DNA of 64,000 nt from Caenorhabditis elegans. Its lineage: Eukaryota; Nematoda; Chromadorea; Rhabditida; Rhabditidae. Where the stretch lies: contig NC_003282.8 of assembly GCF_000002985.6 (NCBI RefSeq), forward strand, positions 8,370,001-8,434,000, written 5' to 3'. The notes under the pieces were generated by a model. That model was not told the DNA's origin, ran no database searches, and was given only the letters and a program-made list of their open reading frames with translations. Below, one piece after another: positions 325 through 51,008 of the stretch; position 1 is the first letter of the stretch, and the number at the start of each line of letters is the position of its first letter. A program made the position numbers and the translations under genes.

Positions 325-5347
<5,023 letters not shown>

Positions 5348-18444: not shown

Positions 18445-19484
18445 TTCGAGTAGAATGAAGAAAAATGGAATATCCATGGAAATTTATACAAGAAATTTGA
18501 TTGATTCAAACCGAATTATGAGGTTCCCGTGTGTGGGTGGATGCAATATTTCCATTTCCCAAGGTGATAAAGTATCTTGGTTTTGATTGTAAAATTTACA
18601 ACGAATTTCCAAGATTGAGAAGGTTTTAAGATCGTTTGTATGGATCAATCAAAAGGTGGTAATTTATAAAAAATTATACTATACCATTCCTTTTGTCAGA
18701 AAGAAATTAAACTCACGTCGATATTGGATCATTTTTTGGCAGATTTTTACTCCTACTGCTCCTACGGTGTCGAAATGACCGAATATCACTATGAGTGGCA
18801 AAAACTGAGTAATTGTCACTTTTTGACAGTAAATAAAAAACGTTCACATTGTTTTTGAAAAGTTTTATTTTACTTGAATTTTTTAAATGATTTTTTACAA
18901 GTTAAAGCTTAGAGCCTGACAAAATTAATAACTGCCGACTCGAATAGTTTTGGCCGAAAAAAAAAACAATTATAGTTGAAATCTCAAACACTTCTATGAA
19001 AAAGTCGGAGCACAGAAACAGCAGTTAAATATCCAATTTTTCGATAATTTCAAAAGAAATTCCTAGTATCTCCACCAAAATGCTTAATTTTTAATTTGAT
19101 TTCGGTAGTAAAAATGGAAGTTTCCAGCTTTCTGGCATGAAAAAATCTATTTGGCTCGTTCTGCATTTTTTTTAAACCTTTTTCCTTTTTCTTTCAACGA
19201 CAATGAAACCCTCTTTTGACGGTCTGCGACTTCAGGTGAGGCTCGCGATTCGGATTGGGAAGGTGACGACGGTTCGACGATCGAGTTTTTCAAATTGGAG
19301 ACACATCCAACACGGCTTTGGCGTCCAGGGGTCTTGTCCGATGGAGTACGTGGAATTCGAAACGGGCGTTGAGGCGTTTTTCTGCAATTTTTCAGATTAA
19401 TTTTTATGTTTTCAGCTTAAAGATACTAAAAATATGGAAGAAGAGTGCAAAAACAGTCGTATCGAACCTTCGTTATTTTTGCTA

Positions 19485-19775
19485 AAAAGATACGGTACCC
19501 GGTCCCGACACGACTTTTTTTTGTTAAATACAAACGACTCGTTTGAAACGAGTATGCCCCTTTAAAGAGTACTGTAATTTGAAACTCTCGCTACTGCGGA
19601 ATTTTCATAGAATTTCTCACAATTTCTTGAAATTTCTTTGATTTTAATTTTTTAAATAAATAAATAAATAAGTTTTTAACGAAAAACAATAAAAAAATAC
19701 TACAGTTTGAGATTCCTGTACTATTCAAAGGCGCACATCGATTTTTATTATAGTTGTCGTTTCGAAACCGGGAAA
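19485..19775. repeat. MITE-like inverted repeat (copy in duplication A)
   Basis: TGCCCCTTTAAAGAGTACTG-type arm followed by the inverted TACTATTCAAAGGCGCA arm, bounded by GGTACCCGG and CCGGG-type ends. The arrangement matches a common Caenorhabditis palindromic repeat that I recognise by motif (GCGCCTTTAAAGAGTACTG). The same element is present in copy B at ~45,270-45,560. Confidence 0.6.
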
Positions 19776-19948
19776 TCTTTTGCTTTTCAGAAAAATAAAT
19801 TTAAAAAAGTCTAATTTTGAGGTATTTTCTTAGATTTTTTAAAATGCATTTTTCAATGGAACTTTATAGTAACTTTTATGCATATTCTTACTACATTGCA
19901 AAGTAAAACAGAATAAACCCAAAATAATTTAAAATGATAATAAATTAC

Positions 19949-22900
19949 CTAGGCGATTCAGTTGTAACTGTGTAACCAGCGGTTCCTCCGAGTCCTCCGC
20001 TCATGGGAACACTTCTCTCAGTTTTTTCGCGAATCTTCATAATTGGTCCAGGCGTTCCGGCAATGGGCATCTGTTTGGCATGCCGATTCTTAGTGAACGA
20101 TTGCATCAAGTCAAGAGCATGAATTGGACGAGCTTCTGGGAACATATTGATATTGAGACGTCCTTTTGTACGGCATGGATCATGTTTTTGAAGTGACTCT
20201 TCAAGTGGCTCCCATCCACCGCCAACACGAACCATCACAGTTGATCGAAGGATACGAACCATTCTCTTGATATGGGTATCTCCAAACTGAAATAATTTTA
20301 AAATAGGACGAATGGTTTTGTGTTTTCGCTTGTATAGACTTAAATTCAGCAGAATAAGAAACATAATTTCATACTGGGACGTTTCAAAAATGTCTCAAAA
20401 TTTCGAGAAAAGGGCTAATTTTAGCTAAAACATTTCAAACAAAAAATAATTTACGACCCATGGAAAGACATGAAAAAGATGACAAACTTTGAGATTTCAG
20501 TAAAATTTTTTTTTTGAAATTTTGGGCTGTCATAAAATTTTTAATTATTCGAATTTTTGAAAAAAAAAAACATTGTTTTTTCGATTGTTTTTTCGAAAAA
20601 TAATAACCTCGGAAATTGCTTTTTGAACGCTGCAAAAATAACCAACAAATGTGTTTTTTTCCCGAAACATAAATACTACAGTAACCCCCATTAGATGTCA
20701 ACTACCGTACCCTATAATAATTCTCGGAAATCTTCTCAATTTGATATGGAGTACAGCAGCTGCACGTCTCTTTTAGCAGCTCGATCTCGTTCGTTATCTT
20801 CTCAGTCTCTGTTTGTGGATGCGCGATTCTCTGGAAAATTCAATTTTTCAGTCAAACGTATGGTATTTTCAGACGACTAACATTAGAAGCATTGCATCGA
20901 TCAATTAGTCCTTCTTTATCAGAAATCAATTCAACAACATCTGAATACGCGTCTTCAACATGTTTCATCAAAGAATCCAGTTCTTTCGCATCAGATTCAG
21001 GCCCAACCGTCTTCATCACGAGCTTACTCTCCGAAATAAATGTATCCTTCTTTTCTTCAACTGGCTTCAACAATACTTTCAATTGTTCAATCTTTTTGGA
21101 AACTTGTTTTGAATCCAGAAGCAATGACGGGCTTTCTTGGAGAGCTTCATCCTTGGATATTTCTTCGAGAGCCTTGAAAATGTGATCAGCATCCGCTTGA
21201 AGCTTGCCAATCTCTTCTTCGAGACGCTTACCACCACTGGCGACATACTGAAAACTTGAACATTTGCATGTTTTTAGCTTTTAATGTGTTCTTTTGAAAT
21301 TGAGGGTTATAAAACAAATGCTCACTTTGCTCATCTCTGGCTCCAGTGGAAAAGCATTATTGAGCGACGAAACGTATGTGATGATTGACTTCTCATCCGG
21401 ATTATTGTTTGTGTCGACATCTTCAGCATCAAGAAGACGTCCGGCTCCAAATTCGGCGTCCGCTGCGGCTAATGCGATGTTCAATCGTTCCGTGTTGGAA
21501 ACTGAATCCGAATTAATCTGTAAATCAAGATTATAATTAAATAGAAACATAATCTCTAGTCTCTGCCTAGGTTTAAAAGGCTCTTATCAGTCCCGATGGG
21601 ACTCAAACTTATGAAATATATATTTTTCAGCCTAACAACTAACATTAGAAGCATTGCATCGATCAATTAGTCCTTCTTTATCAGAAATCAATTCGAAAAC
21701 ATCTGAATACGCGTCTTCGACTTGTTTCAACAAAGAATCCAGTTCTTTCGTATCTGCTTCAGGTCCAGCCGTCTTCATCACGAGCTTGCACTCCGAAATA
21801 AATGTATCCTTTTTTTCTTCAACTGGCTTTAACAACTCTTTCAATTTTTGAATTTTGTTGAATCGAATTTGTTTGGAATACAGAAGCAATGACGGGCTTT
21901 CTTGGAGAGCTTCATCTTTAGACATTACTGCGAGAGCCTCGAAAATGTGATCAGCATCTGCTTGAAGCTTGCCAATCTCTTCTTCGAAGCCTTTTCCACC
22001 ACTGGCGGCCAACTGAAAATTTGAACATTAGCATGTTTTTAGCTTTTTCGTGTGGATTTATTTCGAATTCGAGGGTTATAAACCAAATGCTCACTCTGCT
22101 CATCTCTGGGTCCTGTGGAGCATTGTTAAGCGACGAAACATATGTGATGACCGGCTTTTCATCCGGATTGTTGTTTGTGTCGACATCTTCGGCGTCAAGA
22201 AGACGTCCGGCTCCAAATTCGGGGTCCGCTGCGGCGAAAGCGAGGTTCAGGCTTTCAGTGTTGGGAACTGAGTCCGAATTTATCTGTAAACCATTGGATA
22301 CTGGATTGCTTCTCGCAACTCTCTGTGAAAAAACAAACCGTGTGTGACACACGAATTTTTAGTTTAAAGAGGTAATACACTCTTATCAGTCCCGATGGGG
22401 CTCTAATGAATTAAATATATTTTTCAGCCTAACAACTAACATTAGAAGCATTAAATCGATCAATTAGTCCTTCTTTATCAGAAATCAATTCGAAAACATC
22501 TGAATACGCGTCTTCAACATGTTTCATCAAAGAATCCAGTTCTTTCGCATCAGATTCAGGCCCAGCCGTCCTCATCACGAGCTTACACTTCGAAATAAAT
22601 GTATCCTTTTTTTCTTCAACTAGCTTCAACAATACTTTCAATTGTTCAATCTTTTTGGAAACTTGTTTTGAAACCAGAAGCAATGACGGGCTTTCTTGGA
22701 GAGCTTCATCCTTGGATATTACTGCGAGAGCTTCGAAAATGTGATCAGCATCCGCTTGAAGCTTGCCAATCTCTTCTTCGAGGCGCTTTCCACCACTGGC
22801 GGCGAACTGAAAACTTGAAAATTCGATTTTAAGGGCTATAAACCAAATGCTCACTTTGCTCATCTCTGGCTCCTGTGGAAGAGCATTGTAAAGCGATGAA

Positions 22901-23310
22901 ACGTATGTGATGATCGATTTCTCATCCGGATTGTTTGTGTCGACATCTTCAGCATCAAGAAGACGTTCGACTCCGAATTCGCGGTCCGCTGCTGCGAAAG
23001 CAATGTTCAATCGTTCCGTGTTGGAAACTGAATCCGAATTGATCTGTAAATCAAGATTATAATTAAATAGAAACACAATCTATAGCTTGTGTCCAGCGAT
23101 TGTGTGCTTTCAGAAAGTACAAATTTGACGAAAAACAATTGTACATATTTCTAAAAAAGCGCTAGAACTGATTTCGCAACAAATGTAAAATACCTTATTC
23201 CAATCGATAGCACTGCTTCTATAACGATGAATAATTGCATTGAAGGCGAGTCCATCACGCCATGAATTCGAGAAGTTAATCACATTCCCACGTGGATATT
23301 CAGCAGTCGT
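19949..23310 (-). pseudogene. Truncated spectraplakin-like gene copy (copy A)
   Basis: Exons equivalent to copy B: 23194-23310 (CH2 N-terminal half), 22855-23043 and 22441-22806, 22095-22283 and 21644-22012, 21326-21517 and 20882-21247 (three CH2-half/helical pairs), 20711-20830 and 19949-20286 (GAS2-related domain). All internal exons are open. It lacks the start, the whole first CH domain and the exon equivalent to 49438-49500. The acceptor before 23310 is destroyed (TAATT replaces the CAG) and the terminal exon falls outside the duplicated segment. It could be transcribed only from a new promoter, for example through the adjoining Miro exons. Confidence 0.8.
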
Positions 23311-23669
23311 AATTAGATTGTTTCGTCAAGATTTAAGTAATATTAGCATGTCGAATTGTGTTGTATTTTTCGAAAATATCCAGAATAACTCAGAAAATCT
23401 CTCGGCATGAACTGCTAAACTAAAAAAATCGAGAAATCCTAATTCTTGATAAACTTCAAACAGAAAAAATACGAATCTTTCGGCAAATTTCAGAAAATCT
23501 CTAAATTCTTGATGAAGTAAGAACTTTTCCTATAAACTTCCAATTTTTAAAGCAAATTTTGCCAGAAACGGATAGTTTGAACTACATTTTCCGCATGCGC
23601 GTTTCGCAGAAATCGGAAACTTTTTAATTTTTTAGTGTATTTTCAGCTCTAACCTCTCCAAACCCATTT

Positions 23670-24201
23670 CCAACTTTGTTGCCAACCAAAATGACCGGAG
23701 TCTCGTGGTAGTCTCCGAAGGGCTGGTGAATCAGCGGTAGCCACCTGAAAATTCAAAATTATTGATTTTTTAACAGATAATTTCGATTAAAACGCACTTT
23801 GTTTGAATTCCATCAACAGTGGACTCGTCTGTAACCGAGCGAGTAGACCACTCAAATGACATTCGCCTGGCGGATTTCCGACACAATCCAATTTTCATCT
23901 GAAAAATTGATTTAATTATTTGATTTTAAGGTTTCTAGCAATTTATTTACCTTCTTCCTTAATCGATAAGTCCACGATACTCGTGGTGACGTTTTCCGGG
24001 GTGACATCCGCTGGTATGAGCACTCTGAATAGGAAAAATGTTGAATTTAAATTTACTAACAATTAATAACCTGTCTAATCTCCGGGGAACTGCATCAACC
24101 CATTCATCCTCGAGAAGACTCATCACCAGCGACGTCTTTCCGCATCCTTCGTCGCCGATCAGAACGATCCGCACGTCGGCCAGCGTCTCGTCGTCGCTCA
24201 T
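23670..24201 (-). pseudogene. Miro (mitochondrial Rho GTPase) N-terminal fragment with nonsense codon
   Basis: Four exons of a Miro-like first GTPase domain: 24072-24201 (start MSDDETLADVRIVLIG with P-loop GDEGCGKTS), about 23953-24026 (TPENVTTSIVDLSI), about 23799-23900, and from about 23757 downwards ending in VILVGNKV. In the third exon the expected codon after NVI is TGA (plus strand 23852-23854), where worm miro-1 has Cys as I recall it. The remaining domains (EF hands, second GTPase, tail anchor) are absent. After the GNK of the G4 NKxD motif the sequence switches into spectraplakin intron sequence, so G4 is broken as well. Miro anchors mitochondria to motors; this fragment cannot do so. 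Confidence 0.85.
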
Positions 24202-30600: not shown

Positions 30601-30870
30601 TAAATTCTGAGAATACGTTTTGCGCAACACACCTGACAAGGGAAGGTTCTGAACTCGTTATCGGACTTCGTTACGCCACTATATACATTCGATAGAGGAT
30701 AGTTACAGATGATCCCTTCAAAAAATTTAGCTGCTTCAGAGCAGGTTTGGCCAAGTTGTGACGTCTTGAAGTTTGGTGCTGAAATTCCTCATATCAAGTG
30801 ATATTTCAATGACTACAACGCTGCAGAAACACCAGTGAACTCACCACTCTCAATTAGCGTTAGCAAACAT

Positions 30871-30935
30871 GGCTTGGTGGCCGAGTGGTAGTGGCGTGAG
30901 TTTCGAGGTGTGGTATTCGTGGTTCGGTTCCCCGT
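30871..30935 (+). repeat. tRNA-like sequence inside left terminal inverted repeat
   Basis: GCTTGGTGGCCGAGTGGTAG gives a good pol III A box (TGGCCGAGTGG), and GGTTCGGTTCCCC at 30921-30933 gives a good B box. The spacing and the TGGCCGAGTGG sequence resemble class II (Ser/Leu-like) tRNAs. No complete cloverleaf is evident. The same sequence occurs inverted at 33531-33595. Confidence 0.6.
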
Positions 30936-31206
30936 CAACATAAACTTTTTTTTTTAATTTTTAAAGTCAATCCATTTCCAATTAGAACACATCTATAAAC
31001 TTTTTCAAGTGGAAAAATATGCAGATATTATCCCTATGAATCAAATGCGTCAATTCTCCAAATTTTTCCGATTTTTTTTTTCAATATGTGTTATAGTTAA
31101 AAGCACAATAAAACAGATGTTTAAAGTTTATGTAAAAAACAAACGAACGATGCCAATATTAAAAAAAAAAAACAAAAGCAACATATAATATACTCAACAA
31201 TGGCTT

Positions 31207-33146: not shown

Positions 33147-33530
33147 TTTCAGTTAAAATATAGACAACGGAAGACGAGTCAACAGAAAATAACAAAAAAA
33201 AAACTACAAGAAAGGTGTGAAGCGTGGTGGGACCTAACAGCTCTTCTTGTGGCCTACATTTTTAACCACGATGATATTATTTGAAAATTTAATGTATTAC
33301 TTTCATTTAATCATTTATAAAATATAATAAAAACATTTTGAATTACGGAAAAAAATCAGTGAAAAAAACAATTATTTCAACAAAAAAAAACACTTCGGAA
33401 AAATTTGGAGAATTGACGCATTTGATTCATAGGGATAATATCTGCACATTTTCCCACTTGAAAAAGTTTATAGATGTGTTCTAATTGGAAATGGATTGAC
33501 TTTAAAAATTAAAAAAAAAAGTTTATGTTG

Positions 33531-33595
33531 ACGGGGAACCGAACCACGAATACCACACCTCGAAACTCACGCCACTACCACTCGGCCACCAAGCC
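33531..33595 (-). repeat. tRNA-like sequence inside right terminal inverted repeat
   Basis: Mirror copy of the tRNA-like sequence at 30871-30935: B box complement at ~33532-33544 and A box complement (CCACTCGGCCACCAAGC) at ~33578-33594. It reads towards the transposon interior, as the left copy does. Confidence 0.6.
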
Positions 33596-33833
33596 ATGTT
33601 TGCTAACGCTAATTGAGAGTGGTGAGTTCACTGGTGTTTCTGCAGCGTGGTAGTCATTGAAATATCACTTGATATGAGGAATTTCAGCACCAAACTTCAA
33701 GACGTCACAACTTGGCCAAACCTGCTCTGAAGCAGCTAAATTTTTTGAAGGGATCATCTGTAACTATCCTCTATCGAATGTATATAGTGGCGTAACGAAG
33801 TCCGATAACGAGTTCAGAACCTTCCCTTGTGAG

Positions 33834-34093
33834 GCGCAAAATATCTCGTAGCGAAAACTACAATAATTCTTTAAATGACTACTGTAGCGTTGGTCCCATT
33901 TTGCATTGCTTTCGTAACTTATTGAGGATTTTTTGAAGTATCGAAATGGCAAAAACCAATGAAAAATTCAATATCGAAAATAAATTCGTTTCTAAAGTCC
34001 AGCCAGTAAATCAACACCAGCGCTACAGTAATCGTTGAACGAATTGCTGCGGTTTTCGCTACGCGATATTTTTCGCCACAAGATATTTTGCGC
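33834..34093. mobile_element. MITE with GCGCAAAATATCTCGTAGCG termini
   Basis: Left end GCGCAAAATATCTCGTAGCG and right end inverted (CCACAAGATATTTTGCGC). The internal AACTAC...TTCTTTAAATGACTACTG with CGCTACAGTAATCGTTGAAC matches a common Caenorhabditis palindromic repeat. It abuts the DDE transposon on the right. A TTTTGCGC motif lies at 30618-30625 on the transposon's other side, so the transposon may have landed at or in a related MITE. Confidence 0.7.
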
Positions 34094-34562: not shown

Positions 34563-37500
34563 TCTGTTACAATCTATTCAGATGTTGAAAAGGGGGAAAT
34601 AATTTATCTGTATTGTTAGATTAAGAATCAACCTGGGCCGCAAGACTACTCAAAGAAATATGACATGTTTTGAGGAACTTTAGTGTTGATAATTTTTTTT
34701 AGTTTCTGTAAAACTCGAAGTCTTGTGACATTGAAGAAATCATTAAAGTACCTACAAAATTGAATTAAATTTCCGAACTATGACTCTGTGACTTCAGTTT
34801 ATTTGAGAAATAGAAAAAAGTGATATTCCTTGTTTAGACAGAAATATAGTAACAAGCACTTTATTAACAAGTGAATTAAAAAAATATATTAAAAAGAACA
34901 GGAGGGCGCATAAATGTTTTCAAAATTAATTGTCACATTCAAAATTTGATAGGGATATTGTGATATGAGGTTAATTCAGAAAAAGAGGTGCATACGAGGG
35001 TATGATGAACAGAACGAACAATTATTTAAGAATCTGATTCGAACTCCAAACAATCATTTCCGACATTGACTGATCTACAAAGATAGATGCCTTTCTTCCA
35101 TCGATACATACAATATCAAATCCTCCAATGACACTTTTTTCCAACTCTCCAGGTTCTTGAATCAACATTTCTCTTTCCACGGGTGCAATACAGTAATCCA
35201 CATTCTTGAAGATTATTTTACGACAATCGTCATTACTATAATGAGGACGTCCATGATAAAAACGAGAAAACTCTAATCTTCTGTTGGATCCGTGAATCCA
35301 ATGTTTCAAGAAGAGGTTTACATCTGTCAAAGAAACACTCATAATTTGTGATTTCGGATTAAATGCCAATAAATCATTAAATGCCAATAAATCAGTAATT
35401 AATCTTATTGTTGCAGAGCGATGATTTTGGCAAGCAATTGAATGAATTTGCTTAGGATCATTGAATGGCAATTTATTCAAACGAATAGCTTCAGATTGAA
35501 GAGCAAACATTTTTAATGTTTTTTCATAAAAACTAGTCTTATAATGTCCGTAAAAAATAGTTTGGAAAGTTTCAATATCCAATCCAGCAAACATTTCGAA
35601 AATGTTCATAGTCTCGCAACGTATCGTGTTGTGTAAAGAAAGCTTCACCTTTGGACGGTGAAATATTTCAAGAATGTGACTAATGAACTGCGAAACATTA
35701 ACTTTTTGATTAATCCACTGAGTGGTATCAATTGTTTTTTGACTATCAATGAATCTCAAAAAAGTGGTGTCCGTTAGCAGGTAGAAATTCGTAGATCGTT
35801 TAGGTAGGTAGATGCTGATATTTATGACACATGATAGTTGAACATACATGCTTTTCGCATTCAGACCCAGACGTTCGGTTTGATTTTTAGCCACTGCAGA
35901 TGTAAAAGAGAAGCCAATCCTGTAAACAAATAACATGCTGAATTAGGTTACTTCGGCAAAAAAGGAGGGTATTTATGTATTATACATTATGTGTTCAAAA
36001 GCTTTAACGGAATTAGGTTTTAATTTTGAGATTATTCCTATTGTAAGCCAAAAAATAAAATTATAATAATCACATTCGTAATTGAACACTCTTTAAAGTT
36101 GAGATCCAAATATGCAACACATTTTGAGTGTATTTAGGCAAAGTTGCCACCGGCTTTAAAAATTGAAGTGACTTTTTTCAATTTTGTTTAACTTTTAACA
36201 TTCATTCCCGGTACAGTTAAAAGCACTGACTGCAAAAAAATTTCTATTTAGGCTTTGAACGGCATCTTTATTTGTATTTATTTGTTTTGCCCCCAAGCTT
36301 GTTTATTTGAAAGATATCAACAATTATGTAACTATAGAATATTTGAAAAAGAAATGAAAAGTAATTTGCTTGTTTAACATTTTTTTAATAGGACAAACTA
36401 GAACTGAGATATTTGAACAATCGGGTGCAATACTAATAGTTGAAAAACGGTACTTTCAATTTGGACGTTTTCCCGGCCTAACTATTTTTATTTTTGCCAA
36501 AATACTAGTTTTAACTTACAAGTCGATTAACTTCATATTTTTAAGAACATAACGAATCGATTTTTCAGGTAGATTGATCAGTGGGAAAGGAGTTGGAGCA
36601 ACATCAGTCATGGTGTCAGAAGAGGATGAATGAATAGAAGAAGGTAGACTGAGAACCAATATGGTTTGTTGGCTGACCTCATCTTCCCGAAACTGCCATT
36701 TTGACTGTAAATGCAGTTGCACACCGTGATGTCAGAAGATGATGTCAGAAGAGGATGAATGAATGGAAGAGAGTGAAGAGAGAGACAATATCGGTTTGGT
36801 TTGACCTCATCTTCCCTGGTCTCTCTAGGTCTTGATGGCTCTAAATCCGCTCTATTAGCTAATAGTCTGTCATGTAAAACAACAACTGTCCAAATCTGTG
36901 ACATGATTAATTGTTCTATTAGAATCTATTAAAATGTTAACTTGTCATCCACGTTGCTAGACTGTTGCCTGAAATAATGAGTCCAACGGTTTCGGCTGTA
37001 CAACACCAGCCACAGCGCCTCAAATCGGGAGAATTGTGAAAATCGAGAATTGAAAAGTCCAACGGCGCACGCATGCACACTTTTACGGTATTAAATGAAT
37101 TTCAGACGAAATTTCGCGATTATTCGAGTTTTCAAGATGAAATTTGGAAAAAAAAATAATTAAATATTGGGATTATTATTGCTTTAAAAAAGTTTTAAAA
37201 AACATTTTATTGAACAAATTCATGATTTGGTTGATTTATCATTGACTTTTGAACCGATTAGAACAAGTTAACTCTATGGCAAAATTTCTACGCTAAAAAA
37301 AAATTTTTCAAGCATCAATATGTTTGATTCCAATTTTTAAACGTCAGCTTGATATAAATAACACGGATTCAAGTCTTGAAATTGCTCAAAAATGCCCAAA
37401 TCAACGGAAACTGTTTAGTTGGCAGTTGATCTTCACTAAACCAACACTAAACGTTCAGATCAAATCAAAACTTATTTTATCATTTGAAAAAACATTTTTG

Positions 37501-37925
37501 AATTATTGTTCCCCACAAAAATCAGATGATACGTAGTATTGCATGATGAGAATCTATATGATTCTTCATATGCGCATAGCTATAGATACTGTAATTTCGA
37601 CAACTCCTATCTCCTCAGAGATGCAAGATATCAAAAAGTGATTATTTAAGAAATTGTAGAACATATCAAAAACTATAATAATTAATTAAAATCATTTGTT
37701 TATCTTTTAAGATAAGGGAGTTAGAGTAGCCAGTAGAATAACAAAAAGTATGCATTACAAATGTAAGTCTAACTCCCCCATCTTGCAAGACAAAAACGTA
37801 GGTTAAATTGAATATCATAGTTTTTGATGTGCTCTACAAGTTTTCAGTTGATCACTTTTTGATATCTCGCCTCTCCCAGTAGATAGGAGTTGTCGAAGTT
37901 GAGGTATCTAGAGCCGTAGAGGGTA
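34563..37925. repeat. Large inverted repeat, left arm
   Basis: Reverse complement of 39264-44224 once the 1,593-base Helitron-like insertion is removed; both arms are then ~3.36 kb. The F-box coding sequence and the spacing between its exons appear the same in both arms. Outer segments near 34,570 and 44,220 show small indels (poly-A expansions on the right). Confidence 0.95.
35022..36611 (-). CDS. F-box protein (fbxb-like), left-arm copy
   Basis: Exons 36520-36611 and 35022-35919 splice in phase to 990 bases, 329 residues. The N-terminal F-box (PFPLINLPEKSIRYVLKNM then LIDLIGFSFTSAVAKNQ) should recruit SKP1-like adaptors of an SCF ubiquitin ligase. The remainder resembles the nematode FBA_2 substrate-binding domain (FLRFIDSQ, FISHILEIFHRPKVKL, FEMFAGLDIETFQTI, FNPKSQIMSVSLTDVNLFLKHW, FDIVCIDGRKASI). 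These F-box families expand rapidly in Caenorhabditis. Its predicted protein is the same as the right-arm copy. Promoter and exon 1 face the inner spacer. Confidence 0.85.
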
Positions 37926-39263: not shown

Positions 39264-40577
39264 TACCCTCTACGGCTCTAGATACCTCAACTTCGACAAC
39301 TCCTATCTACTGGGAGAGGCGAGATATCAAAAAGTGATCAACTGAAAACTTGTAGAGCACATCAAAAACTATGATATTCAATTTAACCTACGTTTTTGTC
39401 TTGCAAGATGGGGGAGTTAGACTTACATTTGTAATGCATACTTTTTGTTATTCTACTGGCTACTCTAACTCCCTTATCTTAAAAGATAAACAAATGATTT
39501 TAATTAATTATTATAGTTTTTGATATGTTCTACAATTTCTTAAATAATCACTTTTTGATATCTTGCATCTCTGAGGAGATAGGAGTTGTCGAAATTACAG
39601 TATCTATAGCTATGCGCATATGAAGAATCATATAGATTCTCATCATGCAATACTACGTATCATCTGATTTTTGTGGGGAACAATAATTCAAAAATGTTTT
39701 TTCAAATGATAAAATAAGTTTTGATTTGATCTGAACGTTTAGTGTTGGTTTAGTGAAGATCAACTGCCAACTAAACAGTTTCCGTTGATTTGGGCATTTT
39801 TGAGCAATTTCAAGACTTGAATCCGTGTTATTTATATCAAGCTGACGTTTAAAAATTGGAATCAAACATATTGATGCTTGAAAAATTTTTTTTTAGCGTA
39901 GAAATTTTGCCATAGAGTTAACTTGTTCTAATCGGTTCAAAAGTCAATGATAAATCAACCAAATCATGAATTTGTTCAATAAAATGTTTTTTAAAACTTT
40001 TTTAAAGCAATAATAATCCCAATATTTAATTATTTTTTTTTCCAAATTTCATCTTGAAAACTCGAATAATCGCGAAATTTCGTCTGAAATTCATTTAATA
40101 CCGTAAAAGTGTGCATGCGTGCGCCGTTGGACTTTTCAATTCTCGATTTTCACAATTCTCCCGATTTGAGGCGCTGTGGCTGGTGTTGTACAGCCGAAAC
40201 CGTTGGACTCATTATTTCAGGCAACAGTCTAGCAACGTGGATGACAAGTTAACATTTTAATAGATTCTAATAGAACAATTAATCATGTCACAGATTTGGA
40301 CAGTTGTTGTTTTACATGACAGACTATTAGCTAATAGAGCGGATTTAGAGCCATCAAGACCTAGAGAGACCAGGGAAGATGAGGTCAAACCAAACCGATA
40401 TTGTCTCTCTCTTCACTCTCTTCCATTCATTCATCCTCTTCTGACATCATCTTCTGACATCACGGTGTGCAACTGCATTTACAGTCAAAATGGCAGTTTC
40501 GGGAAGATGAGGTCAGCCAACAAACCATATTGGTTCTCAGTCTACCTTCTTCTATTCATTCATCCTCTTCTGACACC

Positions 40578-42167
40578 ATGACTGATGTTGCTCCAACTCC
40601 TTTCCCACTGATCAATCTACCTGAAAAATCGATTCGTTATGTTCTTAAAAATATGAAGTTAATCGACTTGTAAGTTAAAACTAGTATTTTGGCAAAAATA
40701 AAAATAGTTAGGCCGGGAAAACGTCCAAATTGAAAGTACCGTTTTTCAACTATTAGTATTGCACCCGATTGTTCAAATATCTCAGTTCTAGTTTGTCCTA
40801 TTAAAAAAATGTTAAACAAGCAAATTACTTTTCATTTCTTTTTCAAATATTCTATAGTTACATAATTGTTGATATCTTTCAAATAAACAAGCTTGGGGGC
40901 AAAACAAATAAATACAAATAAAGATGCCGTTCAAAGCCTAAATAGAAATTTTTTTGCAGTCAGTGCTTTTAACTGTACCGGGAATGAATGTTAAAAGTTA
41001 AACAAAATTGAAAAAAGTCACTTCAATTTTTAAAGCCGGTGGCAACTTTGCCTAAATACACTCAAAATGTGTTGCATATTTGGATCTCAACTTTAAAGAG
41101 TGTTCAATTACGAATGTGATTATTATAATTTTATTTTTTGGCTTACAATAGGAATAATCTCAAAATTAAAACCTAATTCCGTTAAAGCTTTTGAACACAT
41201 AATGTATAATACATAAATACCCTCCTTTTTTGCCGAAGTAACCTAATTCAGCATGTTATTTGTTTACAGGATTGGCTTCTCTTTTACATCTGCAGTGGCT
41301 AAAAATCAAACCGAACGTCTGGGTCTGAATGCGAAAAGCATGTATGTTCAACTATCATGTGTCATAAATATCAGCATCTACCTACCTAAACGATCTACGA
41401 ATTTCTACCTGCTAACGGACACCACTTTTTTGAGATTCATTGATAGTCAAAAAACAATTGATACCACTCAGTGGATTAATCAAAAAGTTAATGTTTCGCA
41501 GTTCATTAGTCACATTCTTGAAATATTTCACCGTCCAAAGGTGAAGCTTTCTTTACACAACACGATACGTTGCGAGACTATGAACATTTTCGAAATGTTT
41601 GCTGGATTGGATATTGAAACTTTCCAAACTATTTTTTACGGACATTATAAGACTAGTTTTTATGAAAAAACATTAAAAATGTTTGCTCTTCAATCTGAAG
41701 CTATTCGTTTGAATAAATTGCCATTCAATGATCCTAAGCAAATTCATTCAATTGCTTGCCAAAATCATCGCTCTGCAACAATAAGATTAATTACTGATTT
41801 ATTGGCATTTAATGATTTATTGGCATTTAATCCGAAATCACAAATTATGAGTGTTTCTTTGACAGATGTAAACCTCTTCTTGAAACATTGGATTCACGGA
41901 TCCAACAGAAGATTAGAGTTTTCTCGTTTTTATCATGGACGTCCTCATTATAGTAATGACGATTGTCGTAAAATAATCTTCAAGAATGTGGATTACTGTA
42001 TTGCACCCGTGGAAAGAGAAATGTTGATTCAAGAACCTGGAGAGTTGGAAAAAAGTGTCATTGGAGGATTTGATATTGTATGTATCGATGGAAGAAAGGC
42101 ATCTATCTTTGTAGATCAGTCAATGTCGGAAATGATTGTTTGGAGTTCGAATCAGATTCTTAAATAA
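40578..42167 (+). CDS. F-box protein (fbxb-like), right-arm copy
   Basis: Exons 40578-40669 and 41270-42167, 329 residues. The predicted protein is the same as the left-arm copy, including the internal LLAFNDLLAFN tandem duplication. F-box at residues ~8-50 and FBA_2-like domain after it. The two copies are divergently transcribed from either side of the spacer. Identity suggests a very recent inversion-duplication or ongoing gene conversion between arms. Confidence 0.85.
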
Positions 42168-42362
42168 TTGTTCGTTCTGTTCATCATACCCTCGTATGCA
42201 CCTCTTTTTCTGAATTAACCTCATATCACAATATCCCTATCAAATTTTGAATGTGACAATTAATTTTGAAAACATTTATGCGCCCTCCTGTTCTTTTTAA
42301 TATATTTTTTTAATTCACTTGTTAATAAAGTGCTTGTTACTATATTTCTGTCTAAACAAGGA

Positions 42363-43955
42363 CTAGCGGGCCCTGCGGGCCCGCCAGTTGTAGGGGGTGT
42401 AAGGCGAGTCCCCCTGCCGGGCGTAGGTTCTCGGCTTCGCCTCGAACCTGTTAGAGGGTTCGTGAAATTTTCAGTGGGTCAATGTCTTCTTGATTTTTGA
42501 GTTCGGTTTGACCAAAAACAGACGCACCCGATGAATCAGTTAAAGCTGAGTTTTGATTGATTGAAGTTTGAGGAGGATTTATATGGGGGGAGACGTACCC
42601 ATATTTTGTATAAAATCGAGTATTTCTATATAGTATTCGAATCCCGAACACTCAAAAAAAAAAACAAAAAAGTTTGTCAATTGGTAGAATTGAAACCACT
42701 ACCAAAATTTCCGCAGACATACGCACTAACCACTCGGCCATGTGGGTGAGACCTCAAACTGGAAGTAAGGAAGGTAAATTTCTGGAGGGAGTCGTCTTTC
42801 GATTCCGATTTCTTCAATTATGACTATTTGGGGAAAGACGTTCGAAAACCGTTTATCACTGATAAGTCAGCGAGAAACCTAATTTTTGAAAATTTTATTA
42901 CAGCATTGTACTCATCATAAAATTCCCGAAAGGGAGACGTACAGTTGAGGGCTATATCTTGTACACAGACAGATGTATAGAAAAAAAACAAGTTTTGGCC
43001 TGAAAATTAAAAAAAATAATATCTCTTGGCAGAGCATTGCTAATGCGACGAAACTTCATCTTCCATTAGATAAAATCAAAAACTATGAATTAAAAATACA
43101 TTCCGCAAAACATTAGTGGATAAAATGTTCAGGAGACGCAGGAAACCACTCCCCCCAGTACTAAATTTTTGAATTATTTTTTCTTGAAAAATTTTCCCAC
43201 TGAACTTTTTACAAATTTTATATGTCTCGATGCGTCTTGATGAGACACCTACACGTCAATTTTTAGAAAACTAAGAAAACTTGAAAACTGACCGAGTTAT
43301 GATTGAAAAAGTAGATTCACGAAAATGGAAAAGTGTGCAAAATTTGGCACTTATTCGTCTTGCTCGGCCGACTCATAGAACTTTTCTTAATTCTGAGTTA
43401 AAAATCGTGTTCAGCGTGTTTTTTTACGTGGGGTAAGCAAAAAAAATATCAAAAAAGATGAAGTAGAACTTGAGATAAAGACGAAAAACTACTTTTTCGC
43501 AAAAAAATGTTTTTTGGCAAAATGGCATTTTTTGGCCTTTTGTTTTATCACAACTTTTTTCGTTTGCACTTATGAACTCAAACTTTTTTTCAAAAAATCA
43601 GTCTCTCTGAGTAGTATCTTGCACATGAATTTGAAATGAAACCGAGCAAAACCCGAATTTTAATTCAATTAAAACATGGTTTTTTGGGGGTAAAAAGAGC
43701 AAAAATGTTTTTTTTCAAACTGGGGAAAGCCGCCCTGGGCTCAATTTTGCTCCGAACTTAGTGCCGTTTTCTGCTCCACCGTGGGGCAAAATATTTCTAG
43801 TAGGATTTCAAATATTAGAGCATGAAGTCACACGGTTCAGGAGTTGTGAATGAAAACGAAGTGGGACATTTTTTCGCAAGCCAAAAAAAACCCGAAAAAC
43901 GCGAAAAAGGGGCGGAGTCTGTACACTCGGCATTTATTAGAGGCTGCTTGGCAGA
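42363..43955 (-). mobile_element. Non-autonomous Helitron-like element
   Basis: 1,593 bases present in the right arm only. Read on the minus strand it begins TCTGCCAAGC and ends in a perfect hairpin (GCGGGCCC, GCA loop, GGGCCCGC) followed by CTAG: the 5' TC and 3' hairpin-CTRR signature of Helitrons. No target duplication is made: the left arm keeps the uninterrupted GTGATATTCCTTG site (34,825-34,840). The host dinucleotide is TT on that strand rather than the usual AT. No Rep/helicase gene is seen. Confidence 0.82.
42680..42745 (-). repeat. tRNA-like A/B box sequence inside the Helitron-like element
   Basis: On the minus strand ATGGCCGAGTGGTTAGTGCG (A-box TGGCCGAGTGG, about 42725-42741) is followed by GTGGTTTCAATTCTACC (B-box-like, about 42682-42698). 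It resembles Ser/Leu-type tRNAs but lacks a visible complete cloverleaf. Confidence 0.5.
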
Positions 43956-44592
43956 ATATCACTTTTTTCTATTTCTCAAATAAACTGAAGTCACAGAGTC
44001 ATAGTTCGGAAATTTAATTCAATTTTGTAGGTACTTTAATGATTTCTTCAATGTCACAAGACTTCGAGTTTTACACTAAAAAAAAATTATCAACACTAAA
44101 GTCCCTCAAAACATGTCATATTTCTTTGAGTAGTCTTGCGGCCCAGGTTGATTCTTAATCTAACAATACAGATAAATTATTTCCCCCGTTTCAACATCTG
44201 AATAAAAAAAAAAGATTGTAACACAAAAAAAAAAAAGACCCATCGACACCTCTAGTCTTAGGAAATTGGAATATGATTTTTAGTTGTTAAAATTAAAACA
44301 AAAGACATCATCAATAAACAAATAATCCGGAATGATATTCACATAAACGAGACCGGAAGAGGGGAGTACCGGTGTCTAGAAAAAAACAACTTGAAGAGGA
44401 GAAGTAATAGCCAAGTGATTCCAACTACAGTAACCCAAGATTATGTGGTAAAGGAGCACAACTGTAGACTGCCCGAAACTTGACTTTTAGGAGAAAATAT
44501 ATTGAAAATGGGAACACTAGATGAAAAGAAAACAAACAACAATTCAAAAGAAAAATAACAATAAAAAATACAATTTTGTCGTATGGATTTCA

Positions 44593-47500
44593 TCATTTCG
44601 GAGTCGAAGAAGACGGCCCCACTTGTGGAGAATATCTGAAATTCTAATTTTACTTGAATTTTTTAAATGATTTTTTACAAGTTAAAGCTTAGAGCCTGAC
44701 AAAATTAATAACTGCCAACTCGAATAGTTTTGGCCGAAAAAAAAAACAATTATAATTGAAATCTCAAACACTTCTATGAAAAAGTCGGAGCACAGAAACA
44801 GCAGTTAAATATCCAATTTTTCGATAATTTCAAAAGAAATTCCTAGTATCTCCACCAAAATGCTTAATTTTTAATTTGATTTCGGTAGTAAAAATGGAAG
44901 TTTCCAGCTTTCTGGCATGAAAAAATCTATTTGGCTCGTTCTGCATTTTTTAAAAACCTTTTTCCTTTTTCTTTCAACGACAATGAAATCCTCTTCTGAC
45001 GGTCTGCGACTTCAGGTGAGGCTCGCGATTCGGATTGGGAAGGTGACGACGGTTCGACGATCGAGTTTTTCAAATTGGAGACACATCCAACACGGCTTTG
45101 GCGTCCAGGGGTCTTGTCCGATGGAGTACGTGGAATTCGAAACGGGCGCTGAGGCGTTTTTCTGCAATTTTTCAGATTAATTTTTATGTTTTCAGCTTAA
45201 AGATACTAAAAATATGGAAGAAGAGTGCAAAAACAGTCGTATCGAAATTTCGTTATTTTTGCTAAAAAGATACGGTACCCGGTCCCGACACGACTTTTTT
45301 TTTTGTTAAATACAAACGACTCGTTTGAAACGAGTATGCGCCTTTAAAGAGTACTGTAATTTGAAACTCTCGCTACTGCGGAATTTTCATAGAATTTCTC
45401 ACAATTTCTTGAAATTTCTTTGATTTTAATTTTTTAAATAAATAAATAAATAAATAAGTTTTTAACGAAAAACAATAAAAAAATACCACAGTTTGAGATT
45501 ACTGTACTATTCAAAGGCGCACATCGATTTTTATTATAGTTGTCGTTTCGAAACCGGGAAATCTTTTGCTTTTCAGAAAAATAAATTTAAAAAAGTCTAA
45601 TTTTGAGGTATTTTCTTAGATTTTTTAAAATGCATTTTTCAATGGAACTTTATAGTAACTTTTATGCATATTCTTACTACATTGCAAAGTAAAACAGAAT
45701 AAACCCAAAATAATTTAAAATGATAATAAATTACCTAGGCGATTCAGTTGTAACTGTGTAACCAGCGGTTCCTCCGAGTCCTCCGCTCATGGGAACACTT
45801 CTCTCAGTTTTTTCGCGAATCTTCATAATTGGTCCAGGCGTTCCGGCAATGGGCATCTGTTTGGCATGCCGATTCTTAGTGAACGATTGCATCAAGTCAA
45901 GAGCATGAATTGGACGAGCTTCTGGGAACATATTGATATTGAGACGTCCTTTTGTACGGCATGGATCATGTTTTTGAAGTGACTCTTCAAGTGGCTCCCA
46001 TCCACCGCCAACACGAACCATCACAGTTGATCGAAGGATACGAACCATTCTCTTGATATGGGTATCTCCAAACTGAAATAATTTTAAAATAGGACGAATG
46101 GTTTTGTGTTTTCGCTTGTATAGACTTAAATTCAGCAGAATAAGAAACATAATTTCATACTGGGACGTTTCAAAAATGTCTCAAAATTTCGAGAAAAGGG
46201 CTAATTTTAGCTAAAACATTTCAAACAAAAAATAATTTACGACCCATGGAAAGACATGAAAAAGATGACAAACTTTGAGATTTCAGTAAAATTTTTTTTT
46301 TGAAATTTTGGGCTGTCATAAAATTTTTAATTATTCGAATTTTTGAAAAAAAAAAACATTGTTTTTTCGATTGTTTTTTCGAAAAATAATAACCTCGGAA
46401 ATTGCTTTTTGAACGCTGCAAAAATAACCAACAAATGTGTTTTTTTCCCGAAACATAAATACTACAGTAACCCCCATTAGATGTCAACTACCGTACCCTA
46501 TAATAATTCTCGGAAATCTTCTCAATTTGATATGGAGTACAGCAGCTGCACGTCTCTTTTAGCAGCTCGATCTCGTTCGTTATCTTCTCAGTCTCTGTTT
46601 GTGGATGCGCGATTCTCTGGAAAATTCAATTTTTCAGTCAAACGTATGGTATTTTCAGACGACTAACATTAGAAGCATTGCATCGATCAATTAGTCCTTC
46701 TTTATCAGAAATCAATTCAACAACATCTGAATACGCGTCTTCAACATGTTTCATCAAAGAATCCAGTTCTTTCGCATCAGATTCAGGCCCAACCGTCTTC
46801 ATCACGAGCTTACTCTCCGAAATAAATGTATCCTTCTTTTCTTCAACTGGCTTCAACAATACTTTCAATTGTTCAATCTTTTTGGAAACTTGTTTTGAAT
46901 CCAGAAGCAATGACGGGCTTTCTTGGAGAGCTTCATCCTTGGATATTTCTTCGAGAGCCTTGAAAATGTGATCAGCATCCGCTTGAAGCTTGCCAATCTC
47001 TTCTTCGAGACGCTTACCACCACTGGCGACATACTGAAAACTTGAACATTTGCATGTTTTTAGCTTTTAATGTGTTCTTTTGAAATTGAGGGTTATAAAA
47101 CAAATGCTCACTTTGCTCATCTCTGGCTCCAGTGGAAAAGCATTATTGAGCGACGAAACGTATGTGATGATTGACTTCTCATCCGGATTATTGTTTGTGT
47201 CGACATCTTCAGCATCAAGAAGACGTCCGGCTCCAAATTCGGCGTCCGCTGCGGCTAATGCGATGTTCAATCGTTCCGTGTTGGAAACTGAATCCGAATT
47301 AATCTGTAAATCAAGATTATAATTAAATAGAAACATAATCTCTAGTCTCTGCCTAGGTTTAAAAGGCTCTTATCAGTCCCGATGGGACTCAAACTTATGA
47401 AATATATATTTTTCAGCCTAACAACTAACATTAGAAGCATTGCATCGATCAATTAGTCCTTCTTTATCAGAAATCAATTCGAAAACATCTGAATACGCGT

Positions 47501-50500
47501 CTTCGACTTGTTTCAACAAAGAATCCAGTTCTTTCGTATCTGCTTCAGGTCCAGCCGTCTTCATCACGAGCTTGCACTCCGAAATAAATGTATCCTTTTT
47601 TTCTTCAACTGGCTTTAACAACTCTTTCAATTTTTGAATTTTGTTGAATCGAATTTGTTTGGAATACAGAAGCAATGACGGGCTTTCTTGGAGAGCTTCA
47701 TCTTTAGACATTACTGCGAGAGCCTCGAAAATGTGATCAGCATCTGCTTGAAGCTTGCCAATCTCTTCTTCGAAGCCTTTTCCACCACTGGCGGCCAACT
47801 GAAAATTTGAACATTAGCATGTTTTTAGCTTTTTCGTGTGGATTTATTTCGAATTCGAGGGTTATAAACCAAATGCTCACTCTGCTCATCTCTGGGTCCT
47901 GTGGAGCATTCTTAAGCGACGAAACATATGTGATGACCGGCTTTTCATCCGGATTGTTGTTTGTGTCGACATCTTCGGCGTCAAGAAGACGTCCGGCTCC
48001 AAATTCGGGGTCCGCTGCGGCGAAAGCGAGGTTCAGGCTTTCAGTGTTGGGAACTGAGTCCGAATTTATCTGTAAACCATTGGATACTGGATTGCTTCTC
48101 GCAACTCTCTGTGAAACAACAAACCGTGTGTGACACACGAATATTTAGTTTAAAGAGGCAATGATGGGGCTCTAATGAATTAAATATATTTTTCAGTCTA
48201 ACGACTAACATTAGAAGCATTGCATCGATCAATTAGTCCTTCTTTATCAGAAATCAATTCGAAAACATCTGAATACGCGTCTTCAACATGTTTCATCAAA
48301 GAATCCAGTTCTTTCGCATCAGATTCAGGCCCAGCCGTCCTCATCACGAGCTTACACTTCGAAATAAATGTATCCTTTTTTTCTTCAACTAGCTTCAACA
48401 ATACTTTCAATTGTTCAATCTTTTTGGAAACTTGTTTTGAAACCAGAAGCAATGACGGGCTTTCTTGGAGAGCTTCATCCTTGGATATTACTGCGAGAGC
48501 TTCGAAAATGTGATCAGCATCCGCTTGAAGCTTGCCAATCTCTTCTTCGAGGCGCTTTCCACCACTGGCGGCGAACTGAAAACTTGAAAATTCGATTTTA
48601 AGGGCTATAAACCAAATGCTCACTTTGCTCATCTCTGGCTCCTGTGGAAGAGCATTGTAAAGCGATGAAACGTATGTGATGATCGATTTCTCATCCGGAT
48701 TGTTTGTGTCGACATCTTCAGCATCAAGAAGACGTTCGACTCCGAATTCGCGGTCCGCTGCTGCGAAAGCAATGTTCAATCGTTCCGTGTTGGAAACTGA
48801 ATCCGAATTGATCTGTAAATCAAGATTATAATTAAATAGAAACACAATCTATAGCTTGTGTCCAGCGATTGTGTGCTTTCAGAAAGTACAAATTTGACGA
48901 AAAACAATTGTACATATTTCTAAAAAAGCGCTAGAACTGATTTCGCAACAAATGTAAAATACCTTATTCCAATCGATAGCACTGCTTCTATAACGATGAA
49001 TAATTGCATTGAAGGCGAGTCCATCACGCCATGAATTCGAGAAGTTAATCACATTCCCACGTGGATATTCAGCAGTCGTCTGAAAAGGAAAATATTCAGG
49101 CACTAAATTAACTTACTATTTACAGTACTCTGATGACATTTAAAAATAGTTTATTATAGATTTTTATACAAATTCAAACTGTGTCTGAAAGCGGAACGTC
49201 ACTTTTGTATTTATGATACTTCTACGGAAAATGTTCAATGTTCCAAATTTCGAAAAGAAAACCCAAGTTAGATCTAATCCTAAATTTTACCAAAATTTTG
49301 TATCATCATCTTTAATACAGTAACATGAAAATTTTCAAATAATTAACCAGCTTGTAAGAACAAACTAATGTTTTTTTTTCCATGTTTTCCAGCTCTCGAG
49401 CTCTTGGAGCCCACTATGAAAATATTGTATTTCATACCCGTTTGGCCCATTGAAGCAATGCATCGCGCGCCGATGTCGTTTCACTTCTATGAATGGAGTC
49501 CTGAAAAAAACAAATTAGATTGTTTCGTCAATATTTAAGTAAGATTAGCATGTCGAATTGGGTTGTATTTTTCGAAAATATCCAGCATAACTCAGAAAAT
49601 CTCTCGGCATGAACTACTAAACTAAAAAATCGAGAAATCCTAATTCTTGATAAACTTCAAACAAAAAAAATACGAATCTTTCGGCAAATTTCAGAAAATC
49701 TCTAAATTCTTGGTGAAGTAAGAACTTTTCCTATAAACTTCCAATTTTTAAAGCAAATTTTGCCAGAAACGGATAGTTTGAACTACGTTTTCCGCATGCG
49801 CGTTTCGTAGATATCGGAAACTTTTCAATTTTTTAGTGAATTTTCAGCTCTAACCCCCTCCAAACCCATTTCGAACTTGTTAAATACATTAATTAAAAAA
49901 AAGGAAAACACCTGTGAGTTGGTTGTGTGTTTTTCATTCGTTTGTTCATGTTGTGAAGATTCCAAAAGAAGACGTTGACGAATCACTGAAACCTGGAAGT
50001 TGAGAATAATTGTCCAAATGAGTCCGAGTGTCAGTTTTCCATTTCCCTCCACAATGTCCTCCGGCCTAATGTTCACTAGTTTGATCTGAAAAACTTCCAA
50101 TAAATTTTCCTTCGTTTTTTTAACTGTTAAAGAAAACTCAGCTAAAATAAATTTTAAAAGTTTTTTCGTGAAACCAAAATTACAATATTCGTCTTTTTTT
50201 CAGCCTGTCTTTCCAGAAAACTTACATTTTTCATCTTCAAAAAGTCTAGACAGTACTGTACATTCTGAATCCGATGGAATCGCGTGTAGCCGTTCTCTCT
50301 TTGCTGTAAAATAACACAACACTAATTTTTCAGTAAAAACAAGCATTTCAGGCGAATAATCTTTAAAAAAATCGAAAACTCACAATTCGTTCGCCAGTAA
50401 GAGCTTCCAACAACGCGATCAGTGCAAACCCGTCCCGTAAATCGACAAACAAATCGACGATTGTGTGATCCGTCTGAAAAAATTGACATAAAAATGGCAA

Positions 50501-51008
50501 GATGTAAGCTAAATTTTATAATGTTTTCGTTGTCTATTTGTCGATTTCAGGCTAAATCTGGTTTATTTTAGCAAAAGTCTATATTTTTAAAATCCGAATT
50601 TCAACAATTCAATACAAAAATTCATTCGAGAAAAAACAAATTTCCAAACTGATTTTTATTCATGTGTTTGAAATGTTTTCAGTGTAAAAATAATTGAAAT
50701 TTCTGTAAACCGCGAAACTTCGCATTTTTCAAGCATTTTCACCTTTTTTTTTTGGTTTTTCATAAATTCTCGAGCATTTTTTCAAAATTAAAAATCACCT
50801 TGGTCAAGTGTTTGTTAACCCATTTTGTAAACGTCTTTTTCTGCATTGTGTCCCGGACATCTGCAAAATATTGAAGATTTAGTTTTCAGGAAACGTTACG
50901 CTTACCATTAAATTTTCCCCTATTCAGCTCATAATGATCCAAAATATCTTTCTCCTGAGCATCAGAAGGATCGATTTTGTGTTGACTACGATTCTTTTCT
51001 CCAACCAT
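44593..51008 (-). CDS. Mini-spectraplakin: CH1-CH2 head, triplicated CH2-half/helical modules, GAS2-related tail
   Basis: Sixteen exons, all in phase, 2,859 bases, 952 residues: 50906-51008, 50799-50860, 50384-50473, 50226-50303, 49912-50085, 49438-49500, 48963-49079, 48624-48812, 48210-48575, 47881-48069, 47430-47798, 47112-47303, 46668-47033, 46497-46616, 45735-46072, 44593-44635. First CH domain: [59 protein letters not shown]. Second: [63 protein letters not shown]. These closely match spectraplakins (worm VAB-10, MACF/dystonin) and should bind actin. The tail exons ([20 protein letters not shown], then [17 protein letters not shown] and DPCRTKGR) form a GAS2-related microtubule-binding domain. 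The plakin, rod and EF-hand regions of a full spectraplakin are absent. It probably arose by internal deletion of a partial vab-10 duplicate. The terminal exon ([13 protein letters not shown]) is outside the segment shared with copy A. Confidence 0.82.
44647..49079. repeat. Segmental duplication, copy B
   Basis: Source-like copy of 18867-23310, lying within the complete gene. Direct orientation, 25.8 kb to the right of copy A. The left border falls 12 bases beyond the acceptor of the gene's last exon, so the duplicated unit excludes that exon. Confidence 0.95.
46668..48812 (-). repeat. Triplicated exon pair within the mini-spectraplakin gene
   Basis: Three tandem copies of [~189-base exon + ~366-base exon]: 48812-48210, 48069-47430, 47303-46668. 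Each pair encodes the C-terminal half of a CH2 domain ([13 protein letters not shown] to PEMSK) and a ~122-residue charged helical segment ([53 protein letters not shown]). Every exon is phase 0 at both ends, so copies can be added without breaking the frame. Copies 1 and 3 are closest; copy 2 has more changes ([10 protein letters not shown]). Confidence 0.9.

Follow-up and report, generated by a model that had tools for sequence, protein, structure and literature searches.

A compact, probably selectively maintained vab-10 paralogue on Caenorhabditis elegans chromosome IV, predicted to join a tandem CH head to a GAS2 domain

The 64,000-nucleotide window analyzed here (positions 8370001-8434000 of chromosome IV of Caenorhabditis elegans, within a genome of 100,286,401 bases in 7 contigs; positions below are those of the window unless stated otherwise) carries on its minus strand, at 51008-44593, a paralogue of the spectraplakin gene vab-10 with an intact reading frame. 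We consider it rather probable that it codes for protein and is maintained by selection as a second gene of the spectraplakin type, derived from vab-10, and that its product would act as a compact linker of filamentous actin (F-actin) to the microtubule lattice. In the default model the gene is composed of 17 exons (3021 nt; Table 1) encoding 1006 residues, with a sole, terminal stop codon and GT...AG borders in all 16 introns. The 16-exon, 952-residue in-phase frame of the original prediction was rebuilt exactly at the same place and contains no internal stop; it differs from the default at three points: exon 5 extends as far as 49912, exon 10 begins at 48069, and there is no exon at 45161-44958. 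The frame is open in each of the eight combinations that these choices allow (925 to 1033 residues). The 17-exon model was taken as the default because the exon at 45161-44958 is homologous to a vab-10 exon (59% amino acid identity, 68 codons); the 3' end first proposed is open as claimed, but omits this exon. Skipping of this exon (exon 16) is nevertheless possible, since it is the least constrained part of the gene and has a poor donor. Compared with vab-10, the exon 5 extension shows nine silent and three amino-acid-changing codon differences, plus one in-frame codon gap; one Thr codon of the extension was dropped from the counts. Exon 17 is below the length reach of the tblastn scans, and the first 39 nt of exon 10 appear to be left over from exon 14. 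Exons 8 and 9 are parted by a 48-bp intron (48576-48623) that is stop-free in frame, and its retention would add 16 residues.

The predicted protein has two recognizable ends. Its head bears out the proposed spectraplakin-type tandem CH domain: Pfam CH matches with E=5.9e-59, and for residues of about 35-260 the top PDB match is the actin-binding domain of plectin (E=5.5e-76), with that of MACF1 at 1.4e-74. Four CH stretches were counted, which we read as CH1, CH2 and two extra CH2 halves. The predicted GAS2-related domain at the tail was likewise found, by Pfam (GAS2, E=3e-26) and by the MACF1 GAS2-related domain structure (1.4e-24, residues 776-855), with the CxC and DPC residues aligned; we take these residues to be zinc binders. 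Both CH1 and CH2 are complete, in place of the single CH domain that accompanies GAS2 in GAS2 and GAS2-like proteins, and an ordinary GAS2-like protein was rejected on the Pfam CH and PDB tandem-CH matches. The plakin and EF-hand regions are absent, as first proposed: the Pfam scan of the protein gave no plakin/SH3 and no EF-hand match, the SH3_10-bearing stretch of vab-10 has no match in the window, and the vab-10 exon with a weak EF-hand (E 0.0031, below the cut-off) lies within a missing stretch. The claim that the spectrin rod is missing as well held for the long rod, but one rod exon of vab-10 is retained and is present three times. Complete rod loss was rejected, as this exon is predicted in silico to fold into one three-helix, spectrin-repeat-like bundle. 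Instead of a long rod there is a single repeat in three copies. On its sequence the protein lacks several strict spectraplakin features, yet combines both filament-binding ends with spectraplakin descent, the latter seen in exon-by-exon homology to vab-10.

The parent locus lies on contig 1, where it was recognized by CH, SH3_10, plectin, spectrin and GAS2 matches, at a chromosome I position that we assume to be that of vab-10. In a translated comparison its exons were matched in the same order, namely seven head exons, the second CH2 exon, one rod exon and three tail exons. Amino acid identity to VAB-10 is 85% in the tandem CH head (202 codons), 94% in the second CH2 exon (copy 1), 62-64% in the rod exon and 88% in the GAS2 exon, and the likeness extends to the tail exons, the splice phases and the exon 5 linker extension. 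At the DNA level the exons, exon edges, exon 5 extension and a piece of the 3' flank could be aligned, and the introns could not. Introns are nevertheless present between the same exons as in vab-10, so a retroposed copy was rejected, and the proposed derivation by DNA-level duplication with internal deletions stands. Two gaps interrupt the correspondence: (i) between the second CH2 exon (C1 ~11777938) and the rod exon (~11755165), comprising the plakin/SH3 region, the plectin repeats and most of the rod, and (ii) between the rod exon (~11754772) and the first GAS2 exon (~11748704), comprising the rest of the rod and the weak EF-hand. These missing stretches contain the SH3_10, spectrin repeat and plectin repeat matches as well as the weak EF-hand, and none of their open frames matched the window at E 0.001 (358 frames of 40 aa or more across the 60-kb locus), while the retained exons, bar the very short last one, were recovered. 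The 143-aa vab-10 frame just before GAS2 gave no PDB match, and a regular expression found no EF-hand loop in it.

Between the two ends, the second half of CH2 and one spectrin repeat form a cassette that occurs three times in phase, with phase 0 at both ends. This triplication, of the CH2 half as well as of the repeat, had been missed by the original prediction. All length changes between the cassettes are of 3 nt within exons, and 9 of the 12 pairwise gaps outside exons have lengths not divisible by three. Each cassette being an in-phase unit, a transcript that skips cassette 2 would encode 807 residues, and one that retains only cassette 1 or 3 would encode 621 or 622; each of these forms keeps one complete CH1-CH2 and the GAS2 domain. 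It is possible, and compatible with a maintained linker gene, that the locus mainly makes shorter products with one spliced-in cassette (about 621 aa), the cassette exons being alternatives and not parts of a 1006-residue chain. Phase 0 on both sides of every cassette exon, four out of four open cassette-dropping models (621, 622, 807 and, with none, 436 aa), the acceptor ATTTACAG common to exons 8 and 12, the strongest conservation in the first CH2 half and the alternative exon 5 ending conserved with vab-10 all agree with such products. However, exon 10 would be a poor stand-in for exon 8, because it brings 13 extra residues from the fused remnant or uses its second acceptor. A further thought, speculative and of low probability, is that splicing sets the actin-to-microtubule reach of a nearly rod-less spectraplakin: each cassette would add one repeat, a swap of CH2 halves could retune actin binding, and loss of the microtubule tip motifs described below would confine the protein to the lattice, dividing labor with VAB-10B.

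The in-frame TAG that an unspliced exon 9 meets at bases 10-12 past its end, together with a neighboring partial copy that has neither head nor last exon (copy A), could instead point to two genes, one for an actin-binding-domain protein (exons 1-9) and one for a GAS2-domain protein (exons 10-17). This is improbable, as the donor GTTAGT is identical after exons 9, 11 and 13, the joins are in phase and both head and tail belong to a single locus in vab-10.

Constraint was estimated as the ratio of nonsynonymous to synonymous divergence (dN/dS; Nei-Gojobori) against vab-10, with gapped codons and the 39-nt leader of exon 10 dropped and, in the pooled value, one cassette kept and cassettes 2 and 3 left out. 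Purifying selection, which the original prediction had named as support, was found: over 615 codons dS is 0.678, dN 0.117 and dN/dS 0.173 (0.131-0.223), well below 1, and the largest of 1000 bootstraps was 0.26. A copy dead since the split would be expected to show at least about 0.5, since half of the silent divergence would then have accumulated on an unconstrained copy. The CH1-CH2 and GAS2 parts are the best preserved (head 0.15, 0.09-0.24; GAS2 exon 0.06; the CH2 halves of cassettes 1, 2 and 3 at 0.03, 0.17 and 0.10), the tail gives 0.16, and the C-tail is relaxed. Between the three cassettes, whose divergence took place within this gene, the pooled ratio is 0.291 (0.211-0.402) from three pairwise comparisons that are not independent, with single pairs from 0.18 to 0.53. 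Simulated neutral mutation at 0.1-0.4 substitutions per site introduced a mean of 10 to 29 stops, and none of 1000 runs remained stop-free at any of five levels; the simulation assumes that three cassettes were present throughout and ignores conversion. Given the exon order and phase of vab-10, the low dN/dS and these runs, the reading frame is not due to chance, and an artifact of exon picking was rejected on the same grounds.

The end of the protein differs from that of VAB-10. In the paralogue, FRIP and KRIS stand in the places of SRIP and TRIP of the VAB-10 tail, and its 1006 residues contain no [ST]x[IL]P at all, so that the SxIP motifs of a spectraplakin C-tail are lacking. With both SxIP-type motifs of VAB-10 lost, no following of growing microtubule ends mediated by end-binding (EB) proteins is expected, and the sequence suggests that the protein would bind the microtubule lattice through GAS2, without tip tracking. 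Passages of two studies illustrate what such motifs do in Drosophila: plus-end tracking by Pigs depends on one SxIP-type motif (PMC4732294), and Shot variants without the C-tail or its SxIP motifs leave microtubule curling unrescued (PMC9320987).

Several observations weigh against a maintained, folded linker. For the spectrin-repeat exon, Pfam gave no match that passed the cut-off, and no sequence in the PDB matched it with an E value better than 0.1; in the open frame of vab-10, the stretch that Pfam matches best to spectrin begins after the retained part; three-helix bundles score high Z values with unrelated proteins, some of which are among the 50 matches listed; and the mean predicted local distance difference test score was 56.5-65.0 in four of five structure models. 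Two half-CH2 segments that lack their other half fit awkwardly into a folded protein, and the CH2 halves of cassettes 2 and 3 are more changed than that of cassette 1 (14 and 11.5 vs. 4 amino-acid-changing differences; Fisher p 0.015 for copy 2 and 0.069 for copy 3, with 11.5 rounded to 12). Constraint against vab-10 is weaker in the three spectrin-repeat exons (dN/dS 0.35, 0.25 and 0.32) and weakest in exon 16 (0.59, 0.30-1.04), the comparison of repeats 1 and 3 (0.53, 0.24-1.41) is indistinguishable from neutral, and dS is 0.50 in the head and 0.81 in the tail, without explanation. SRIP and TRIP are regarded as EB sites in VAB-10 by analogy. Finally, a long-functional, recently silenced gene would look alike. 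Such a once-working, now dead or silent gene, an intact-looking duplicate in a duplication-rich patch, would fit the 99% identical copy A, the 3.1-kb perfect inverted repeat and the Tc5-like element nearby, and also the relaxed exon 16 with its poor donor. We regard it as unlikely in view of 3021 nt free of stops and frameshifts, a pooled dN/dS of 0.17 against vab-10, a value of 0.29 between cassettes, and GT-AG borders throughout. Gene conversion among the cassettes and with copy A could both blur dates and prolong an intact look.

For the favored reading, a maintained linker gene, we propose the following course, in which the order and direction of events are inferred. A stretch of vab-10 with its introns would have been duplicated to chromosome IV and have undergone two internal deletions, and the exon pair encoding the second half of CH2 and one spectrin repeat would then have been multiplied to three in-frame copies. 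The product would fold into an actin-binding CH1-CH2 domain, a short spacer in which three isolated spectrin repeats alternate with half-CH2 remnants, and a GAS2 domain. From these domains a role as an actin-microtubule linker may be suggested, with F-actin tied to the microtubule lattice across a much shorter span than by VAB-10B.

Table 1. Features of the vab-10 paralogue and of its partial copy (window positions)
Feature	Position	Strand	Remarks
Exon 1, ATG start	50906..51008	-	homologous to ATG-bearing vab-10 exon, C1:~11792066
Exon 2, CH1	50799..50860	-	
Exon 3, CH1	50384..50473	-	
Exon 4, CH1	50226..50303	-	
Exon 5, end of CH1	49993..50085	-	31/31 residues same in vab-10
Exon 5 alternative 3' extension, 27-aa CH1-CH2 linker	49912..49992	-	conserved in vab-10
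Exon 6, start of CH2	49438..49500	-	
Exon 7, first half of CH2, single copy	48963..49079	-	
Exon 8, second half of CH2, cassette 1	48624..48812	-	94% aa identity to vab-10; dN/dS 0.03
Exon 9, spectrin repeat, cassette 1	48210..48575	-	
Exon 10, second half of CH2, cassette 2	47881..48108	-	alternative in-phase acceptor gives start at 48069
Exon 11, spectrin repeat, cassette 2	47430..47798	-	
Exon 12, second half of CH2, cassette 3	47112..47303	-	
Exon 13, spectrin repeat, cassette 3	46668..47033	-	
Exon 14, start of GAS2 domain, with CxC pair	46497..46616	-	
Exon 15, remaining GAS2 domain and conserved next stretch	45735..46072	-	dN/dS 0.06
Exon 16, C-tail, vab-10-homologous, relaxed	44958..45161	-	dN/dS 0.59; weak donor GTTTTT
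Exon 17, last coding exon with stop	44593..44635	-	by-eye match to last vab-10 coding exon
3' flank	44332..44467	-	73% alike to vab-10 3' flank
Copy A, headless partial tandem copy	18867..23680	-	without exons 1-6, exon 7 acceptor and exon 17

The second, headless copy of the gene in the window (copy A) had escaped the earlier account. Its main block (18867-23310) is 99.06% identical to 44647-49079, and the adjoining 23311-23680 is 95.4% identical to 49513-49881. Since it has neither exons 1-6 nor exon 17, and no exon 7 acceptor, it is unable to produce the linker on its own, and it is taken for a probable recent partial duplicate. The 43 differing alignment columns of the main block fall mostly in a few patches separated by long identical runs, a pattern suggestive of gene conversion or of a very recent origin. 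Other repeats lie in the same region. An inverted repeat (34827-37925 / 39264-42362) has arms of 3099 bp that are 100% identical, each with the same 306-aa open frame, which in the one arm scanned matches the F-box-associated family FBA_2; the flank of this palindrome (34575-34828) matches sequence just downstream of the gene (43954-44204) in inverted orientation with 97% identity. A Tc5-like transposon (30632-33834) has 98.5% identical inverted ends and DDE and Tc5 C-terminal matches, and a further inverted repeat pair of about 490 bp (3713-4200 / 4602-5086) is 98.8% identical. The flanking genes presumably bear the clone names D2096 and T26A8. The assignment to chromosome IV agrees with passages of PMC8664450: all five reference bases that it gives for C. 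elegans mutations on this chromosome (two in D2096.12 and three in csr-1) were found on contig 4 at the positions stated.

Compared with VAB-10, the paralogue is devoid of the plakin/SH3 region, the plectin repeats, nearly all spectrin repeats and the EF-hand region, has the CH2-half and spectrin-repeat unit triplicated and has lost the SxIP-type motifs. It resembles MACF1/ACF7, dystonin and Shot in having CH1-CH2 at one end and GAS2 at the other, but with about 1000 residues it has neither a plakin domain nor a long rod. Part of PMC9145010 deals with "truncated" spectraplakins of early animals and speculates on an ancestral layout of CH, spectrin repeats, EF-hands and GAS2, which the paralogue resembles minus the EF-hands. 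GAS2, GAS2L1-3 and Drosophila Pigs, which passages of PMC4732294 and PMC12084551 describe as short proteins with a single CH domain and GAS2, share with it the small size and the joining of CH to GAS2. The difference in layout that the original prediction drew holds against these descriptions: the paralogue has CH1 and CH2 of the plectin/MACF1 type, spectrin repeats and descent from vab-10. Structurally incomplete duplicates are common in C. elegans according to part of PMC3449122; the duplicates treated there are young pairs (dS < 0.1), whereas the paralogue, at a pooled dS of 0.68 to vab-10, is still intact. The locus, being part of a reference genome, probably has some database entry. Among the titles and abstract openings listed by gene- and domain-directed searches of an incomplete paper collection, none describes such a gene.

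Engineered mini-spectraplakins, mainly with the two ends kept, are used to probe how much of a giant spectraplakin is required. If the favored reading is true, C. elegans would possess a natural mini-spectraplakin kept by selection beside the full-length gene, and the same question could be asked in vivo in a model animal. The locus would, in addition, exemplify one way in which a new gene can arise: the central part of a giant gene is excised, and a pair of exons lying across two domains is then multiplied.
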